Shown in pieces: positions 3,211-61,628 of a DNA stretch of 64,000 nucleotides. The DNA is from an uncultured Clostridia bacterium (GTDB taxonomy: Bacteria; Bacillota; Clostridia; UBA1381). Within the stretch, counting starts at the first letter, position 1. Each line of letters opens with the position of its first letter. The translations under genes and the position numbers were made by a program. The notes beneath the pieces are model-generated. The model was not told the DNA's origin. It saw nothing but the letters and a program-made list of their open reading frames with translations, and made no database searches. The stretch covers positions 1 through 64,000 of the forward strand of contig CANPXG010000005.1 in the NCBI GenBank assembly GCA_947585795.1. Direction: 5' to 3'.

Positions 3211-3351
3211 TCGCTTGACGAGGCAAGTGAATATGGTATAATGAAAGTACATGAAGAATTAAATACGGACTTTTATGCCTAAAATCAAGTAAAGTGCATA
3301 GAAGCCCGTTTTTTTTATTCAAAAAATTCTATATGAAAGGTGGTTTTAACA
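3211..3351 (+). promoter_or_regulatory. Leader module M1 (divergent member): promoter, ATGAAG, terminator, RBS
   Basis: TTGACG-N16-TATAAT (3215-3242), acATGAAG, hairpin ACGGACTTTTATGC/GCATAGAAGCCCGT+T8, then gene. Confidence 0.7.
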
Positions 3352-3960
3352 ATGTCTATAAACGTGGTCTACTTATCGGTAATAGGTATAAGCATATGTA
3401 TCGGATATATACGCGGTGGTGTTAAGAGCATAGGCGGGTTGATAGCTATGATTATCAGCTGGGTACTGGCACGGAGCATGGCGGGTGGTATAACGCTATG
3501 GCTATTTGAGAGGTTTGGCATAGAAACATACCTTGCCGGGCTGATAGCTCCGTTCCAAGACGGGACAATAGCGAATAACCTACTCACAGGCGCGGATATA
3601 GTCAAAGAATATACCAATATTCCGTTTGTGACGGGCGTAACTCAAACATTCGCAAACTCACTGAACGTGACAGCATATAACGTATGCACGATGCTTACAA
3701 CGGTGATGGCATTTGCCGTACTGCTGTGCATAAGCGGTCTGATACTGAAAATAATCAATACCGGTGTAAACAGTATACCCATGAGCAAGGGCTTAAACGC
3801 TGTCCTTGGCGGTGTATGCGGACTTATAAAGGGCGTTATTTTATGCCTTGTACTGTATTTCATCTTCATATGCCTTAATTCCCTGTTCGGCGCACATATC
3901 CCGATCGACACGGGGTATTTAACCAATATTTGGCAAAATATTCAGGGCTTACACTTTTAA
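3352..3960 (+). CDS. CvpA-like multi-TM membrane protein
   Basis: Several hydrophobic helices in CvpA-like layout (NVVYLSVIGISICIGYIRGGVKSIGGLIAMIISWVLARSM). Confidence 0.5.
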   Translation: MSINVVYLSVIGISICIGYIRGGVKSIGGLIAMIISWVLARSMAGGITLWLFERFGIETYLAGLIAPFQDGTIANNLLTGADIVKEYTNIPFVTGVTQTFANSLNVTAYNVCTMLTTVMAFAVLLCISGLILKIINTGVNSIPMSKGLNAVLGGVCGLIKGVILCLVLYFIFICLNSLFGAHIPIDTGYLTNIWQNIQGLHF

Positions 3961-6380: not shown

Positions 6381-7925
6381 ATGAGAGTTTACGACGGTAT
6401 TATGGGGTTTGTTGTGGGTGACGCGATAGGTTTACCATACGAGTTCAAGGAACGTGATTCGTTCAAGCTGAAATTATTTGTAGGACATAGGACGCATAAT
6501 CAGCCGTCAGGTACATGGTCGTTTGACAGTTCACTGGTTCTTGCTACCATGGACGCTCTTATACAGAACGATTGTCGGTTCGACCTGAAGCTCTGTACTG
6601 ATATAATGACGAACTTTATCAGGTTCTATAAGGACGGGGCATATACGCAGTACGACGAGTATTTTGATATAGACAACGTCACAAAGAGAGCTGTTAAGGA
6701 CTATATGCGTACAATACCCAACCACGCCTGTGAAGACGAAGCGGCGTGTAACAACAGCGCATTAGCGCGTATATTACCCATTGCGTACCTAAGCCCTGAT
6801 GATGCGGCGGTTGATTTAATAGCCGAGCTGACGCATAAAAACGATGTTTCCACCTATGCGTGTGAGGTATATGTGCGATTGGCAAGGAGATTGCTTGAAG
6901 GGTATTCGCCTATACAAGCATATTACGATGTCATACGCGATATTGAACAGAACCGCTTACATACCCCAAGACCGGACGCGTTTAAGCAGACCTGTACACT
7001 GTACACACTAAGCAGAAATAGCGTCAAGAGCAGTGATTATGCGGTCGATACGCTTGAAGCGGCTATTTGGAGCTTTATCACTACGGATAATTACAAGGAT
7101 TGCATAACGACAGCGGTCGAGTTAGGAGATGATACAAACACTATCGCCGCCCTTGCCGGTGGTTTGGCAGGTATAGCATACGGCATTGAGGGCGAGAACG
7201 GCATACCGCAAGAATGGATAAACAGCGTACCGAAGCATGAGGAAGTACAAAGGCTATGTACCCGGTACGAGAGAGCTATACCGCGCAAGGTAAAGCAAGT
7301 GAACCGTAAACCTATTATACCCGTTGCGGTTCGTGAATGGATATATACGGCGTTGATCGTCGGCATATTCATAGCTGCCGGTTGGACTGTTAAGGCTAAT
7401 GTGTGTGATATAACCCGCGTGGACGGGGTAAGCATGGAGCCGACACTGATGGACGATGACAGGGTGGTATGTACAAAGCTTGATTTTGTACCGCAAAGGG
7501 GCGATATAGTCATGCTGGACAGTACATATAAGGCACGGGAAGAATATATCAAGGCATGGCAGAGCTCGGGTGATAATGTGGTGTACGCCGATGATATGGT
7601 TTTGCCTAATGATTTGAAACCGAAATATTTTGTCAAGCGCGTCATTGCAACAGCAGGGCAAACGGTCGATATACATAACGGCAAGGTGTATGTTAATGGC
7701 AGACGCATTGATGAACCGTATTATCATGGTATAACGTTCAAAACCGATGCTTCCGTACAATACCCTGTTACGGTGGATGAAGGTTGCGTATTTGTTATGG
7801 GTGACAATAGAGGAAACAGCAACGATAGCCGTAACTCCAAGCTTGGCATGGTGCCGTGTGATGCCATTGTAGGCAAAATACAGTACAGGCTATACCCGTT
7901 CCGAGATGCGGGAAGTGTATATTGA
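6381..7925 (+). CDS. ADP-ribosylglycohydrolase-like domain fused to signal peptidase I (S26) domain
   Basis: N-term GFVVGDAIGLPYEFKERD...GTWSFDSS...GDDTNTIAALAGGLAGIAYG; C-term TM, GVSMEPTL (Ser), FVKRVIATAGQTV (Lys), GDNRGNSNDSR. Confidence 0.88.
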   Translation: MRVYDGIMGFVVGDAIGLPYEFKERDSFKLKLFVGHRTHNQPSGTWSFDSSLVLATMDALIQNDCRFDLKLCTDIMTNFIRFYKDGAYTQYDEYFDIDNVTKRAVKDYMRTIPNHACEDEAACNNSALARILPIAYLSPDDAAVDLIAELTHKNDVSTYACEVYVRLARRLLEGYSPIQAYYDVIRDIEQNRLHTPRPDAFKQTCTLYTLSRNSVKSSDYAVDTLEAAIWSFITTDNYKDCITTAVELGDDTNTIAALAGGLAGIAYGIEGENGIPQEWINSVPKHEEVQRLCTRYERAIPRKVKQVNRKPIIPVAVREWIYTALIVGIFIAAGWTVKANVCDITRVDGVSMEPTLMDDDRVVCTKLDFVPQRGDIVMLDSTYKAREEYIKAWQSSGDNVVYADDMVLPNDLKPKYFVKRVIATAGQTVDIHNGKVYVNGRRIDEPYYHGITFKTDASVQYPVTVDEGCVFVMGDNRGNSNDSRNSKLGMVPCDAIVGKIQYRLYPFRDAGSVY

Positions 7926-8662: not shown

Positions 8663-8857
8663 AAATCGCTTGACAAAGGCTGTAAAAGTGATATAATGTA
8701 CATATACAGACATGAAGTATTATTAAAAAAGAGGAAAAGTGTATCTTTTCCTCTTTTTTTGTTTACCAAGTTACAAGATAAGGTATATTAGGTTATTCCT
8801 TATCTTTTTATATATATAAACCCAAAAAACCAGTTTTTAATTAAGGAGGAATAAACA
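8661..8857 (+). promoter_or_regulatory. Leader module M2 (class C)
   Basis: TTGACA 8670-8675, TATAAT 8692-8697, gacATGAAG, hairpin 1 AGAGGAAAAG..CTTTTCCTCT+T7, hairpin 2 GATAAGG..CCTTATC+T5, TTAAGGAGG. Confidence 0.85.
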
Positions 8858-12455: not shown

Positions 12456-12692
12456 AAAAAATCGCTTGACAAGGAGTATGAGTATGGTATAATTAAACTA
12501 AGATATATGAAGATTTTATCTAAAAAGAGGAAAAGTGTATACTTTTCCTCTTTTTTTATTTACCAAGTTGCAAGACGGAAAATTATTGACGGATAATTTT
12601 CTGCCTTTTTATTTATACAACTAACATTGCCCGCCGTCAAGCAATATGGCTTAATATATATAAAAATGGTTTTTATTAAGGAGGAATTTAAA
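12456..12692 (+). promoter_or_regulatory. Leader module M3 (class A)
   Basis: TTGACA 12466-12471, TATAAT 12488-12493, ATGAAG, hairpin 1 12526-12557, hairpin 2 with T5, GCCGT..ATGGC hairpin, TTTTTATTAAGGAGG. Confidence 0.9.
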
Positions 12693-13337
12693 ATGAGAAA
12701 CAGAGTATGGAATTTATTCGATTTAAAAGCGTTGGCAGGTCATTTTTCAAACGAAATAAACATTGACACCACTATAAGTCAAGAGGAGTTAAATGCTTAT
12801 GGCGATATGTGCGGTATTTCGGTAAATCATATAGCCAAAGAATCAGCACAGCAGCCGGGCAAAACATTTCTTACCATAGAAGTAACGCCTGATACAAAAG
12901 TATTTTATTTGTTTGATATAGTGGCGGCGGTAGATGTGAGCAAACAAAAGCAACTCGGCGACATCTTTGATGACGTTACAAATTCTGTTGAATGGCTTGA
13001 AAGCTTAAAATGGGATGACGATTGGTGGAAAAACGCAGCTGAACTAATCAATGTGGCTATTTTGCTGAATACATGCAGCGAAATACAAAAAGAGAAGTTT
13101 ATAGTAAGCACAATAACAAATCCGGCAAGACATCTTTTGAAATACGTTGATGCAGATATACAAATGTTAAATGTATATGATATTAACGAATTTGTCGAAA
13201 AGGCAAATGTTACAAAAGATTATATTGCCGAGATGAAAGCCGAGATTGATGAGATAAAAGAGAAAGAAGTTGCTGAAGTAAAAGCCATGATGGATAAAAT
13301 TTCGGCATTACAGAGTGATTATAAGAAAGGAATATAA
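12693..13337 (+). CDS. Hypothetical protein
   Basis: ATG after TTAAGGAGGAATTTAAA; track ORF starts further upstream inside the leader. Confidence 0.65.
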   Translation: MRNRVWNLFDLKALAGHFSNEINIDTTISQEELNAYGDMCGISVNHIAKESAQQPGKTFLTIEVTPDTKVFYLFDIVAAVDVSKQKQLGDIFDDVTNSVEWLESLKWDDDWWKNAAELINVAILLNTCSEIQKEKFIVSTITNPARHLLKYVDADIQMLNVYDINEFVEKANVTKDYIAEMKAEIDEIKEKEVAEVKAMMDKISALQSDYKKGI

Positions 13338-15989: not shown

Positions 15990-16553
15990 TTATAACGCAA
16001 TAACTCTGTTATCGCTTTGAGCACGCAGATACTCAAACTCAAGCATTAGCTCGGGCTTGAAGTGGGCTGATACGGCGGCAAGAGGGGTATCTGCATGGTA
16101 CATAAGCGTTTCGACTACGCACGTATCTGCAATCTCACAGATGTAATTATACGAATCACGCTCTTTGTACTGTGTAATATTTTGCTCAACAACGCGATCT
16201 ATTTCGGCTTTGTTCTCAGCATAAAGCTTGCGTGCTTCTTCACGCGTTCTGATCGGCATGGTAATATCGGCTGCACTAAAGCATATAGGCAGTCTGTTCT
16301 TTGCATTTACATACGCTGCGTCTTGGATCAGTTTATTTTTCAAACTTCTGCGTATAGCAGCGAGTTTGTTTCTTGTCGGCATACCCATGTTCGTATAACG
16401 CAATGCAATTTCGCGAATACGGGCATCGGCATATGCTTTTGTAAACACAATACTTTCTTCACCAAGCCGTTGCAGCTCGGCAAGCACATTGTTGCGGATA
16501 GTTGCCAATTCGTCGGCATGGTCTTTCATGAATTTGTTTAACATAATAATCAC
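15990..16553 (-). CDS. Hypothetical protein, lone minus-strand gene
   Basis: 187-aa ORF with RBS agagagtgat and its own promoter. Confidence 0.65.
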   Translation of the reverse strand: MIIMLNKFMKDHADELATIRNNVLAELQRLGEESIVFTKAYADARIREIALRYTNMGMPTRNKLAAIRRSLKNKLIQDAAYVNAKNRLPICFSAADITMPIRTREEARKLYAENKAEIDRVVEQNITQYKERDSYNYICEIADTCVVETLMYHADTPLAAVSAHFKPELMLEFEYLRAQSDNRVIAL

Positions 16554-16626
16554 TCTCTTTCATAATAAAAAATGGTATAGTACACCAATTTCTGATGTCC
16601 CATACCGTATTTTTTACTATGTACAC

Positions 16627-16655
16627 ATTATACCACAAATTTAACGATTTGTCAA
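16627..16655 (-). promoter_or_regulatory. Consensus promoter of the minus-strand gene
   Basis: Minus strand TTGACA-N17-TATAAT. Confidence 0.8.
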
Positions 16656-16698
16656 GTATTTTTTGGCAAACACTGAAAAAGCATGAAAAAAATCCCAA

Positions 16699-16892
16699 AA
16701 AATCGCTTGACAAGGAGTATGAGTATGATATAATTAAGTTAAGATATATGAAGATTATATACAAAGAGGAAAAGTGTGTACTTTTTCCTCTTTTTTTATT
16801 TACCAAGTTAGCAATGATGACAGGATAACCGTTCTGTCATTTTTGTATATATAAAAATCAATTTTATGTTTTTTTGAAGGAGGAGATAGCAG
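16699..16892 (+). promoter_or_regulatory. Leader module M4
   Basis: TTGACA 16707-16712, TATAAT 16729-16734, ATGAAG, hairpin 1 AGAGGAAAAGT..ACTTTTTCCTCT+T7, hairpin 2 ATGACAG..CTGTCAT+T5. Confidence 0.88.
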
Positions 16893-17132
16893 ATGATGAA
16901 AGCTATGGAAAAGGTCAAGAGTTTCTTGACAAAAGACAAGATAGTATTCGGGGTATGTAAGAGGGTTGAGGAAAAGACCGGCATCAATGCGGCTATTCTG
17001 CGTGTAATGTTAATCATTATCGGCGCGTTTGTAACGTTCTTACCCACCGTAATAGTCTATCTTGCAGCAGGCTGTATGTTTTCCGTATCGTCCGTAAAGG
17101 GAAACACAACAGAGGAAAAGACCGAGGCATAA
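16893..17132 (+). CDS. PspC-domain membrane protein
   Basis: VFGVCKRVEEKTGINAAILRVMLIIIGAFVTFLPTVIVYLAAG. Confidence 0.8.
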   Translation: MMKAMEKVKSFLTKDKIVFGVCKRVEEKTGINAAILRVMLIIIGAFVTFLPTVIVYLAAGCMFSVSSVKGNTTEEKTEA

Positions 17133-19762: not shown

Positions 19763-20000
19763 AAAAATCGCTTGACAAGGAGTATGAATATGGTATAATT
19801 AAACTAAGATATATGAAGAATTTTATCTAAAAAGAGGAAAAGTGTATACTTTTCCTCTTTTTTTATTTACCAAGTTACAAGACAGGGAATTATTGACGAA
19901 TAATTTTCTGCCTTTTTATTTATACAACTAACATTGCTCGCCGTCAAGCGATACGGCTTAATATATAAAATAAATGGTTTTTATTAAGGAGGAATTTAAA
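19763..20000 (+). promoter_or_regulatory. Leader module M5 (class A)
   Basis: TTGACA 19772-19777, TATAAT 19794-19799, ATGAAG, hairpins 1, 2 and GCCGT..ACGGC, TTTTTATTAAGGAGG. Confidence 0.9.
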
Positions 20001-25000: not shown

Positions 25001-25199
25001 AAAAACTGCTTGACAAGGCGTGTGGGTGTGGTATAATAAAGCTAAGATATATGAAGATTTTATCTATAAAAGAGGAAAAGTGTACGCTTTTCCTCTTTTT
25101 TTGTTCCTAAGTTCAAGCAGTGATGGACTAACTAAGTAGATCTGTCGCTGTTTTTTATATATACACATACAAAAAAGTTTTTATTAAGGAGGAATATGT
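25001..25199 (+). promoter_or_regulatory. Leader module M6 (class B)
   Basis: TTGACA 25010-25015, TATAAT 25032-25037, ATGAAG, hairpin 1, hairpin 2 AGCAGTGATGGA..CTGTCGCTGTTTTTT; near-identical to M12. Confidence 0.9.
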
Positions 25200-30812: not shown

Positions 30813-31012
30813 AAAAATCGCTTGACAAGGGCAATGGGTATGATATAATTAAATCAAGAGATATGAAGCTAAACATTTAAAGGGGAAAGTGTATGTACTT
30901 TTCCTTTTTTTTATTTAAGTTGAAAGACAGCGGATATTAAGTAATTATCTGCTGTTTTTTTATTTTATCTCTGTAAAAATATATAAAGGTTTTTTAGAAG
31001 GAGGAAAAAGAT
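30813..31012 (+). promoter_or_regulatory. Leader module M7 (class D)
   Basis: TTGACA 30822-30827, TATAAT 30844-30849, ATGAAG, hairpin 1 AAGGGGAAAGT..ACTTTTCCTT, hairpin 2 ACAGCGGATA..TATCTGCTGT+T7. Confidence 0.88.
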
Positions 31013-38267: not shown

Positions 38268-38506
38268 AAAAAATCGCTTGACAAGGAGTATGAGTATGGT
38301 ATAATTAAACTAAGATATATGAAGATTTTATCTAAAAAGAGGAAAAGTGTATACTTTTCCTCTTTTTTATTTACCAAGTTACAAGACAGGGAATTATTGA
38401 CGAATAATTTTCTACCTTTTTATTTATACAACTAACATTGCCCGCCGTCAAGCGATACGGCTTTAAATATATATATTAAACGGTTTTTATTAAGGAGGAA
38501 GAAACA
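38268..38506 (+). promoter_or_regulatory. Leader module M8 (class A)
   Basis: TTGACA 38278-38283, TATAAT 38300-38305, ATGAAG, hairpins 1, 2 and GCCGT..ACGGC, TTTTTATTAAGGAGG. Confidence 0.9.
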
Positions 38507-39896: not shown

Positions 39897-40098
39897 AAAA
39901 TCGCTTGACATGGCGAATGGGTGTGATATAATTAAACCAAGAGATATGAAGAATGCATATTAAAAGAGGGAAAGTGTGTGCTTTTCCTCTTTTTTTTTAT
40001 TTTCAAGTTGCAAACAGCGATAGATTATTAAGTAGATCTGTCGCTGTTTGCTTTTTCATATCTTAAGTAGCTAAAAATTTTTTATGGAAGGAGATATG
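39897..40098 (+). promoter_or_regulatory. Leader module M9 (class D)
   Basis: TTGACA 39905-39910, TATAAT 39927-39932, ATGAAG, hairpin 1 AGAGGGAAAG..CTTTTCCTCT, hairpin 2 ACAGCGATAGAT..ATCTGTCGCTGT. Confidence 0.88.
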
Positions 40099-41166: not shown

Positions 41167-43329
41167 ATGAATGTTATCAAAAGAAACGGTACAGAAATGA
41201 GTTTCAACACGGAAAAAATCGTTGCGGCGATTATGAAAGCTAACAACGCATTGCCGCGACAGGAGCTTACGGACAGTCAGATACGCGAGGCAGCCGATTA
41301 CATCACGTTCAAGTGTGAACGTCTTAATCGTGCTGTATCGGTCGAGGAGATACAGGACATGGTTGAAAGACAACTTATTGCCATAGGTGCATCCGAAACC
41401 GCAAGAGCGTACATAAAGTACAGATATAAGCGGTACTTGGCGCGTAAGGCTAACACAACAGACGACAGAATATTGTCGATTATTGACACAACGAACGAGG
41501 AAGTCAAGGAAGAAAACTCCAACAAGAACCCCGTCATCGCGAGTACACAGCGCGATTATATGGCGGGCGAGGTCAGCAAAGACTTAGCCGACCGTATTCT
41601 TCTCCCCGAAGATGTTGTAAAAGCCGATAAGGAAGGAATTATAAAGTTCCACGACAAGGACTATTTCGCGCAGCATATTACGAACTGTCAGCTTGTTAAT
41701 CTGAAGGATATGCTTCAGAACGGTACGGTCATAAGCGATACGCTGATTGAGTCACCGCACAGTTTCTCAACGGCGTGTACCATTACAACGCAAATAGTCG
41801 CGCAAGTGGCAAGCAGCCAGTTTGGAGGTCAGAGTATAAGCTTGTCACATCTTGCGCCGTTCGTAGATGTGTCGCGTAAGCGTATACACGCAAAGGTTAT
41901 AAAGGAACTGGAAGGTATGGACGTTTCTAAGGAACGTATCGAAGAAATAGTCGAAAGCCGTGTCCGTGACGAGGTTACGAAAGGTATTCAGACTATCCAG
42001 TATCAGATTATAACCTTAATGACAACCAACGGTCAGGCTCCGTTTGTGACGGTATTTATGTACCTGAACGAAGCGGAGAACGAACAGGAACGCGCTGACT
42101 TGGCACTGATTATTGAGGAAACGCTGAAACAGCGGTATATCGGTGTCAAAAACGAGAAAGGAGTTTACATAACTCCGGCGTTCCCGAAACTCATTTATGT
42201 AACAGAAGAAGACAATATCCATGAAGATTCGCCGTACTGGTACTTAACGGAGCTTGCCATTAAGTGTACGGCAAAGCGAATGGTGCCCGATTATATATCG
42301 GAGAAGATGATGAAAAAACTCAAAGATGAAAATTGTTTTCCGGCGATGGGCTGTCGGTCCTTCCTCGCTCCGTGGAAAGATGAAAACGGCAACTACAAAT
42401 TCTATGGACGCTTTAATCAAGGCGTTGTTACACTCAATCTTGTTGATGTAGCGTGCAGTGCTATTGAACCGGGCGGCGACATTAACACATTTTGGCAGAT
42501 ACTTGACGAACGTTTGGAGCTTTGCCATAAGGCTCTGCGCTGTCGTCATGAGCGTTTGCTCGGTACAAAATCTGACATTGCTCCCATTCTGTGGCAGCAC
42601 GGCGCACTTGCACGGTTGAAGCCGGGCGAAACGATTGATAAACTGCTTTATGGTGGTTATTCGTCAATTTCCTTAGGTTACGCGGGCTTGTGGGAGTGTG
42701 TATACGAACTCACACACAAGAAGCTCACAGAACCGGAAGGGGAGAAGTTGGGACTTGAAATCATGCAGCGTCTTAACGATACCTGTGATAAGTGGAAAGC
42801 CGCTGAAAATATCGGCTATTCGCTCTACGGTACACCGTTGGAAACAACAACCTATACCTTCGCTAAGGCTCTCCAAAAGCGGTTCGGTATAATAAAGGGT
42901 GTTACCGATAAGGCGTATATAACCAACTCGTACCATATCCATGTTACAGAGGAGGTAGACGCTTTCTACAAGCTGGCACAGGAAGCAAAATTCCAAGCAA
43001 AGTCTTTGGGCGGTTGCATAAGCTATGTAGAAGTTCCGAACTTGCAGAACAACCTTGCCGCTGTTAAAAGCATCGTTCAGTTTATGTACGACAACATCAT
43101 GTATGCCGAACTTAACACAAAAAGTGATTTTTGTGAGAAGTGCGGCTTTGACGGCGAGATTGAATGTGTAGAGGACGAAAACGGTAAGCTGATTTGGAAA
43201 TGCCCGAACTGCGGCTGCACAGACCAAGATAAGCTGTACATTGTACGTCGTACTTGCGGCTATCTCGGCGTGAACAAGTGGAATCAGGGCAGAACCGAAG
43301 AAATTAAAGACCGCGTTCTTCATCTGTAA
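41167..43329 (+). CDS. nrdD: Anaerobic ribonucleoside-triphosphate reductase, class III
   Basis: ATP-cone N-terminus; CEKCGFDGEIE..CPNCGCTD; glycyl radical RTCGYLGVNKWNQGR. Confidence 0.95.
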   Translation: MNVIKRNGTEMSFNTEKIVAAIMKANNALPRQELTDSQIREAADYITFKCERLNRAVSVEEIQDMVERQLIAIGASETARAYIKYRYKRYLARKANTTDDRILSIIDTTNEEVKEENSNKNPVIASTQRDYMAGEVSKDLADRILLPEDVVKADKEGIIKFHDKDYFAQHITNCQLVNLKDMLQNGTVISDTLIESPHSFSTACTITTQIVAQVASSQFGGQSISLSHLAPFVDVSRKRIHAKVIKELEGMDVSKERIEEIVESRVRDEVTKGIQTIQYQIITLMTTNGQAPFVTVFMYLNEAENEQERADLALIIEETLKQRYIGVKNEKGVYITPAFPKLIYVTEEDNIHEDSPYWYLTELAIKCTAKRMVPDYISEKMMKKLKDENCFPAMGCRSFLAPWKDENGNYKFYGRFNQGVVTLNLVDVACSAIEPGGDINTFWQILDERLELCHKALRCRHERLLGTKSDIAPILWQHGALARLKPGETIDKLLYGGYSSISLGYAGLWECVYELTHKKLTEPEGEKLGLEIMQRLNDTCDKWKAAENIGYSLYGTPLETTTYTFAKALQKRFGIIKGVTDKAYITNSYHIHVTEEVDAFYKLAQEAKFQAKSLGGCISYVEVPNLQNNLAAVKSIVQFMYDNIMYAELNTKSDFCEKCGFDGEIECVEDENGKLIWKCPNCGCTDQDKLYIVRRTCGYLGVNKWNQGRTEEIKDRVLHL

Positions 43330-43518
43330 AAAATCGCTTGACAAGGATTTTCAATGTGATAAAATAAAATAAAGACATGAAGAATTTCATTAAAGAGGAA
43401 AAGTGTGCGCTTTTCCTCTTTTTTTATTTACCAAGTTATAAGATAAGGCATATTAGTTATTCCTTATCTTTTTATATATAAATCATAAAAAACGGTTTTT
43501 ATTAAGGAGGAATTTAAA
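43330..43518 (+). promoter_or_regulatory. Leader module M10 (class C)
   Basis: TTGACA 43338-43343, TAAAAT 43360-43365, gacATGAAG, hairpin 1, hairpin 2 AGATAAGG..CCTTATCT+T5. Confidence 0.85.
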
Positions 43519-48184: not shown

Positions 48185-48420
48185 CAAAAATCGCTTGACA
48201 AGGAATATGAGTATGGTATAATTAAACTAAGATATATGAAGATTTTATCTAAGAAGAGGAAAAGTGTATACTTTTCCTCTTTTTTTATTTAGCAAGTTAC
48301 AAGACAGGGAATTATTGACGAATAATTTTCTGCCTTTTTATTTATACAACTAACATTGCCCGCCGTCAAGCGATACGGCTTTAAATATATAAAAAATGGT
48401 TTTTATTAAGGAGGAAGAAT
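48185..48420 (+). promoter_or_regulatory. Leader module M11 (class A)
   Basis: TTGACA 48195-48200, TATAAT 48217-48222, ATGAAG, hairpins 1, 2 and GCCGT..ACGGC, TTTTTATTAAGGAGG. Confidence 0.9.
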
Positions 48421-52832: not shown

Positions 52833-52947
52833 TTAAATGCCTACTAAAGAAGCACAGTCCGCTTTAATAAATGAACCATTTTTCATGTCCCTATATACTA
52901 CCTATCCTAAAAAATAAAAAAAGGTACTTTGGTTATAAAAATTTTTT
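52833..52947 (-). repeat. Leader repeat R1 upstream of minus-strand cluster
   Basis: 115 bp identical to 61274-61388; minus strand contains GTAGTATATAGGGACATGAAAAATGGTTCAT. Confidence 0.92.
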
Positions 52948-52998
52948 TAAAAAAATTATACACCACTGTTTTTTGAACATTTGTGGCGAATTTTTACA

Positions 52999-61273: not shown

Positions 61274-61388
61274 TTAAATGCCTACTAAAGAAGCACAGTC
61301 CGCTTTAATAAATGAACCATTTTTCATGTCCCTATATACTACCTATCCTAAAAAATAAAAAAAGGTACTTTGGTTATAAAAATTTTTT
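61274..61388 (-). repeat. Leader repeat R2 upstream of minus-strand cluster
   Basis: 115 bp identical to 52833-52947. Confidence 0.92.
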
Positions 61389-61429
61389 AAAAATTTTTTG
61401 GTTGATGTATAAACCATAAATCTATATAA

Positions 61430-61628
61430 AAAACTGCTTGACAAGGCGTGTGGGTGTGGTATAATAAAGCTAAGATATATGAAGATTTTATCTATAAAAG
61501 AGGGAAAGTGTATACTTTTCCTCTTTTTTTGTTCCTAAGTTCAAGCAGTGATAGGTTAACTAAGTAAATCTGTCGCTGTTTTTTTATATATACACATACA
61601 AAAAAGTTTTTAATAAGGAGGAATATGT
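61430..61628 (+). promoter_or_regulatory. Leader module M12 (class B)
   Basis: TTGACA 61438-61443, TATAAT 61460-61465, ATGAAG, hairpin 1, hairpin 2; near-identical to M6. Confidence 0.9.

Follow-up and report, generated by a model that had tools for sequence, protein, structure and literature searches.

One short leader precedes nearly all plus-strand operons of an integrative conjugative element in a Clostridia assembly, as well as the T4SS operon on a second contig (C10). In each full copy a consensus promoter is followed by two hairpins with terminator T-runs, P1 and P2, and copies stand at orthologous places in related elements, with P1 conserved in sequence and P2 in shape. The reading proposed here, which we hold with about even confidence, is that this shared leader would terminate transcription early by default, and that a common trans-acting factor would control read-through of P1 and P2 for all operons.

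Element Context

The window, by which we mean the whole 64-kb stretch of DNA analyzed (W), covers the leading 64 kb of C5, a 76-kb contig in the 2.54-Mb assembly. It belongs to an integrative conjugative element, of which C5 carries the VirD4-type coupling protein and C10 the integrase and the TraG/VirB4-like T4SS ATPase. C5 further encodes a ParM-like actin, ParB, SSB, a YqaJ recombinase, a RecD2-like helicase, a topoisomerase and a CHAP hydrolase, and at 6381-7925 an ADP-ribosylglycohydrolase fused to signal peptidase domains; on C10 the integrase, the ATPase and the T4SS genes lie beside chromosomal genes. A scan with the P1 hairpin pattern gave matches in two rabbit-gut Clostridia assemblies, and the 110-kb element H (CANQZS010000001.1) shares synteny with the window, its proteins being about 40-80% identical. 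The T4SS genes of C10 are orthologous to T4SS genes on the fourth contig of H, and orthology with H and H4 suggests that C5 and C10, unjoined in the assembly, probably form one element. At 41167-43329 the window encodes an anaerobic ribonucleotide reductase 96% identical to that of H, most of its neighbors being 40-80% identical, which may reflect either recent exchange or strong constraint.

Anatomy of the Leader

The promoter block, found mechanically, occurs in 12 copies on the plus strand of the window, and 11 of them (M2-M12) share one layout from promoter to gene (Table 1): a TTGACA-16-TATAAT promoter with TG preceding the -10, an ATGAAG box about 13 nt downstream of the -10, P1 with its T-run, an AAGTT linker, P2 with its T-run, an AAGGAGG-like site and the gene. 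Both hairpins take the form of intrinsic terminators, a stem-loop followed at once by a T-run, in all 11 modules, with fold energies of -10.8 to -15.7 kcal/mol for P1 and -8.2 to -26.2 kcal/mol for P2. M1 and a thirteenth module at contig position ~65,500, the latter with unrelated strong terminators, fit none of the P2 classes discussed below. The P1 pattern matches nine times in the 2.54-Mb assembly, always on C5 and on the same strand, and the reversed control gave no match; the repeat of promoter plus double terminator is not due to chance, because five of the seven promoters that match the consensus exactly (12/12) between 8000 and 27999 of the window are modules.

Table 1. Leader modules of the window, with M3 resolved into its parts, and the T4SS leader on C10.
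Feature	Position	Strand	Remarks
M3 promoter, TTGACA-16-TATAAT, TG ahead of -10	12466..12493	+	12/12 consensus
M3 ATGAAG box, ~7 nt from expected transcript start	12507..12512	+	invariant across aligned W, G and H modules
M3 P1 terminator, AAGAGGAAAAGTGTATACTTTTCCTC + T7	12525..12557	+	hairpin 12525-12550; conserved in sequence
M3 linker, AAGTT	12565..12569	+	AAGTY in most modules, every lineage
M3 P2, class A terminator + T5	12572..12610	+	hairpin 12572-12605; shape kept, sequence varies
M3 ribosome-binding site, AAGGAGG	12678..12684	+	ahead of gene 12693-13337
M1	3215..3317	+	promoter, box, single unrelated terminator; before cvpA-like gene 3352-3960
M2	8670..8810	+	P2 class C
M4	16707..16844	+	P2 singleton; before PspC-domain gene 16893-17132
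M5	19772..19917	+	P2 class A; operon with 590-aa and VWA proteins
M6	25010..25156	+	P2 class B; operon with ParB
M7	30822..30961	+	P2 singleton; operon with YqaJ, RecD2-like helicase, topoisomerase
M8	38278..38421	+	P2 class A; operon with SSB
M9	39905..40056	+	P2 related to class B; operon with anaerobic ribonucleotide reductase
M10	43338..43473	+	P2 class C
M11	48195..48339	+	P2 class A
M12	61438..61585	+	P2 class B; operon with primase-like gene
T4SS leader on C10	G000:C10 ~38,100; L029:4111-4004	-	orthologue L093:2445-2552

On C10 a sigma-70-like gene heads the T4SS operon behind a leader composed of promoter, ATGAAG box, terminator, CAAGTTA and second terminator. The sigma-like gene is also preceded by the module in H and in G071, a genome of another genus, and the leader would therefore govern the transfer operon as well. 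The minus-strand operons of the window are without the module. Two 120-nt repeats (52833-52952 and 61274-61393, 99% identical) lie upstream of such operons and are possibly a second shared control region. For the divergent gene 15990-16544, a consensus promoter of its own leads into a hairpin with T-run, and the ATGAAG box is missing (window 16540-16700, minus strand).

At seven loci P1 also has the form of a terminator when read on the minus strand, as might be expected if P1 and P2 were passive, unregulated attenuators or insulators whose fixed low read-through would limit the cost of the element and block read-through and antisense transcription. Such a passive role, which is also in keeping with the finding of no factor by NusG and Pfam searches, appears unlikely, as it leaves unexplained the ATGAAG box, the AAGT linker and the conservation of P1 sequence across lineages, as well as the position of the stops, always downstream of a promoter.

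In M3, M5, M7, M8 and M10 the promoter begins 9-23 nt past the upstream stop codon, leaving no space for a preceding terminator. Modules placed directly after upstream genes, with no other terminator between, would suit a leader RNA that is itself a cis-acting antiterminator of the put, EAR, canT or conAn2 kind, its box and P1 acting on the transcribing polymerase, so that transcripts begun at a module would get through P1, P2 and any later stop; a polymerase that had come in from an operon upstream or from a spurious start would halt there. The conserved sequence of box and P1 points the same way, as does the outcome of the NusG and Pfam searches, which yielded no protein factor. However, at 452 nt the nearest counterpart in an integrative conjugative element, the RNA antiterminator canT, greatly exceeds the leader in size (PMC11658703); control in cis alone would keep every operon constitutively on, and the possible 5' hairpin at the box is weak. 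We regard a purely cis-acting RNA as improbable. As to that hairpin, its Watson-Crick arms were longer than those of swapped controls (3.72 against 3.28 +- 0.10, with 0 of 1000 reaching the native value), but its fold energy was no better than that of swapped controls and the arm signal was gone once G-U pairs were allowed. Long-range pairing between the 5' box and the stretch downstream of P2 was rejected, since over the modules taken together it did not exceed that of swapped partners (4.96 vs 5.21 +- 0.34 kcal/mol). M7 and M9, and in H the orthologous modules Hi and Hd (H63064, H51734), unlike most other modules, can form a duplex of box region and post-P2 region at -8 to -18 kcal/mol, built from different sequences in W and H.

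The invariant ATG at a fixed position could also suggest ribosome-mediated attenuation, with a leader peptide read from ATGAAG or from a GTG in P1. This is extremely improbable and was rejected: open reading frames from the ATG span 2 to ~40 codons with broken frames, neither frame, length nor peptide is conserved, and the ATG lacks a preceding Shine-Dalgarno site.

Relatives and Distribution

In H, modules stand before the operons orthologous to those that follow M1, M3-M10 and M12. A covariance model, the E-values of which are rough, recovered modules in further genomes, every one from the same family; samples of about 390-400 genomes taken from the class and from the phylum, searched under stricter filters that may miss weak matches, gave none outside the family, and phage records gave matches at chance level only. 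In G071, where element proteins are ~30-45% identical, the modules have diverged in sequence yet retain box, P1, AAGTC linker and P2, and they precede orthologues of the M1 cvpA, the M4 pspC and the T4SS sigma-like genes. Across 29 modules taken from several genomes, box, P1 T-run and linker hardly vary. Some modules are without P1, P2 or a T-run; examples are G071:C30:14087, which has no P1, and G029:C1:6788, in which P2 has no T-run.

A known RNA family was rejected, as Rfam returned no gathering-score match in the window and only sub-threshold matches at the modules. A HEARO RNA (RF02033, E 9e-24) lies at L079:18098-18309, on a module-bearing contig of G071. Strong promoters, many copies and a P1 conserved in sequence might also be taken to mean that the short terminated RNAs, of ~60 and ~105 nt, are themselves the product, as a multicopy small RNA family or sponge; this is very unlikely, as a ribosome-binding site and gene follow the modules directly, the modules are syntenic with the operons, P2 is unconserved in sequence and an Rfam match is absent.

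Sequence Classes and Helix Conservation

The sequence-only reading from which this work started had described a second hairpin that changes in sequence while keeping its terminator shape, and had sorted it into four leader classes. The shape is indeed kept in all 11 full window modules, and most of the sorting held. Class A (M3, M5, M8, M11) is coherent at 86-100% P2 identity, its leaders being alike as far as the ribosome-binding site, as are class B (M6, M12; 90%) and class C (M2, M10; 94%), and M4, which had been set apart, does stand alone by identity. The proposed class D (M7, M9) dissolved: M9 is 65% identical to M7 vs 79% to each of M6 and M12, with which it has the P2 3' arm in common, and M7, whose 3' arm is TATCTGCTGT and not ATCTGTCGCTGT, is a singleton.

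The further suggestion that the classes encode separate expression programs found no support, since they match only partly between W and H. Operons of H carry P2 sequences that differ from those of their orthologues in W. The H loci orthologous to M6 and M12 carry differing P2 types. Those orthologous to M3, M5 and M8 share one type, with a sequence differing from class A of W, and M3/M5/M8 is the only set that stays together as one P2 type in both elements, an agreement that by our own count would arise by chance in about 4 of 84 cases (~1 in 20). One type in both elements, with an element-specific sequence, is expected of copies homogenized within an element. The simplest reading of the classes would thus be duplication of the leader and homogenization within each element, with P2 drifting while still a terminator, and the variety of P2 looks like free sequence drift under a fixed shape instead of separate gene programs. 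The promoter, ATGAAG box, P1 and AAGT linker common to all modules likewise argue for one control and not four.

Stem changes had been described as largely paired or G-U compatible and as pointing to selection on structure. The description stands overall, with the exceptions of a C-A break in M8 and a constant A-C mismatch in class A. Within classes, the changes in the window are all one-sided and mostly G-U compatible, with no case of two-sided compensation, and the window alone therefore shows no covariation and proves little; support for selection on structure came instead from two-sided changes in other genomes. As MAFFT alignment of P2 between classes is unreliable, helix arms were matched up manually, starting at the stem base, and in the resulting counts, in which kinship of the rows is uncontrolled, the P2 base helix of 11 modules from G071, G017 and G021 was paired in 88/88 cells (100%) vs 85.4 +- 2.3% in column shuffles, with two-sided changes at six of its eight pairs and none of 2000 shuffles reaching 100%. 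By the same procedure, P1 pairing over all lineages was 97.0% vs 88.7 +- 1.5% when shuffled (0/2000), and M7 and Hi kept 11/11 P2 pairs with three two-sided changes. Native and chimeric P2 energies showed the shape kept, a result that any two unrelated terminators would give. P1 identity is 91% within W and 78% between W and H, against 64% and 62% for P2; to judge from these comparisons, it is the sequence of P1 that is kept, and only the shape of P2. In the G071 lineage P2 may carry more than shape. The P2 apex CACCTTTTACAAGGTG is conserved in G071 modules (L079, L081, L082) and resembled in G017 and G021.

Proposed Model of Leader Control

From two stops placed after a consensus promoter before most operons, we infer that initiation would be free and the decision would be made at termination. 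RNA polymerase would initiate at the strong sigma-A type promoter and by default stop at one or both terminators, P1 ~60 nt and P2 ~105 nt into the transcript, such that full operon expression would require read-through of both. Control of this read-through would most likely be common to all operons and lie with a factor acting in trans, a product of the element or of the host. It would recognize the ATGAAG box near the transcript start together with P1 and the AAGT linker, the likely recognition site because these parts are conserved in sequence. P2 would serve as a plain second stop of unimportant sequence, which could drift, be replaced and be homogenized among copies, and so give classes A, B and C. 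Termination at P1 and P2, its regulation and the existence of a factor are predictions. It is conceivable, at somewhat less than even confidence, that the element carries a novel antitermination regulon, in which one factor would read a short leader before ~14 operons and switch the element at termination, not initiation.

As internal terminators are few within window operons, there would be little need for long-range processive antitermination, and a local mechanism is favored. Antitermination by LoaP was rejected, a NusG paralogue being absent: each genome, in assemblies that are incomplete, has one NusG-family gene, located off the element contigs. In the Pfam search for antiterminator candidates, most of the conserved small element proteins had no match, and the first genes of operons mostly matched none of the models, among which ConAn1 was not represented. 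Two products of the T4SS operons, one sigma-like and one with an S1 domain, are candidate factors by annotation.

The leader may work like known antitermination and attenuation systems, although sequence does not establish membership of any one. In the conAn system, a ConAn1 protein and conAn2 RNA act at the start of one pLS20-type operon with many internal terminators (PMC8955417). Common to both are a Gram-positive conjugative element, terminators after the promoter and operon expression via read-through; however, the present leader is short and repeated before most operons, annotation of the operon genes with the models above named no ConAn1, and a scan of the window operons found no single large conjugation operon with many internal terminators. 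The canT/T1 system of Tn916 (PMC11658703) is likewise an antitermination step of an integrative conjugative element at a terminator between promoter and transfer genes, but relies on a single cis-acting 452-nt RNA element, unrepeated, where the module leader is short and repeated. The prgQ leader of pCF10 (PMC8265641) resembles the module by layout, with two terminators in series (IRS1 and IRS2) between promoter and transfer operon; read-through is regulated in pCF10, where PrgU, a protein of the plasmid, acts on the stretch immediately past IRS1, although that leader is longer, present in one copy and controlled by antisense RNA. For phage Q and Pseudomonas AlpA, a loaded factor permits terminator bypass (PMC6606751, PMC9371919), and the terminator after the promoter and the signals within and just past the promoter are alike; the DNA binding element and sigma-dependent pause are features of Q and AlpA, and annotation without a dedicated model identified no Q or AlpA homologue. 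HK022 put and the Bacillus EAR RNAs, as cited in PMC11658703, are structured 5' RNAs tied to antitermination, from which the module differs in that its hairpins carry terminator T-runs and match no Rfam family.

Antitermination in conjugative elements has so far been known from single operons, whereas here the leader recurs before most of them. With its position retained even between diverged elements, such a leader would turn termination into the master switch for the element as a whole, and box, P1 and linker together may offer a compact signal by which to seek the factor and to annotate such elements in uncultured gut Clostridia.
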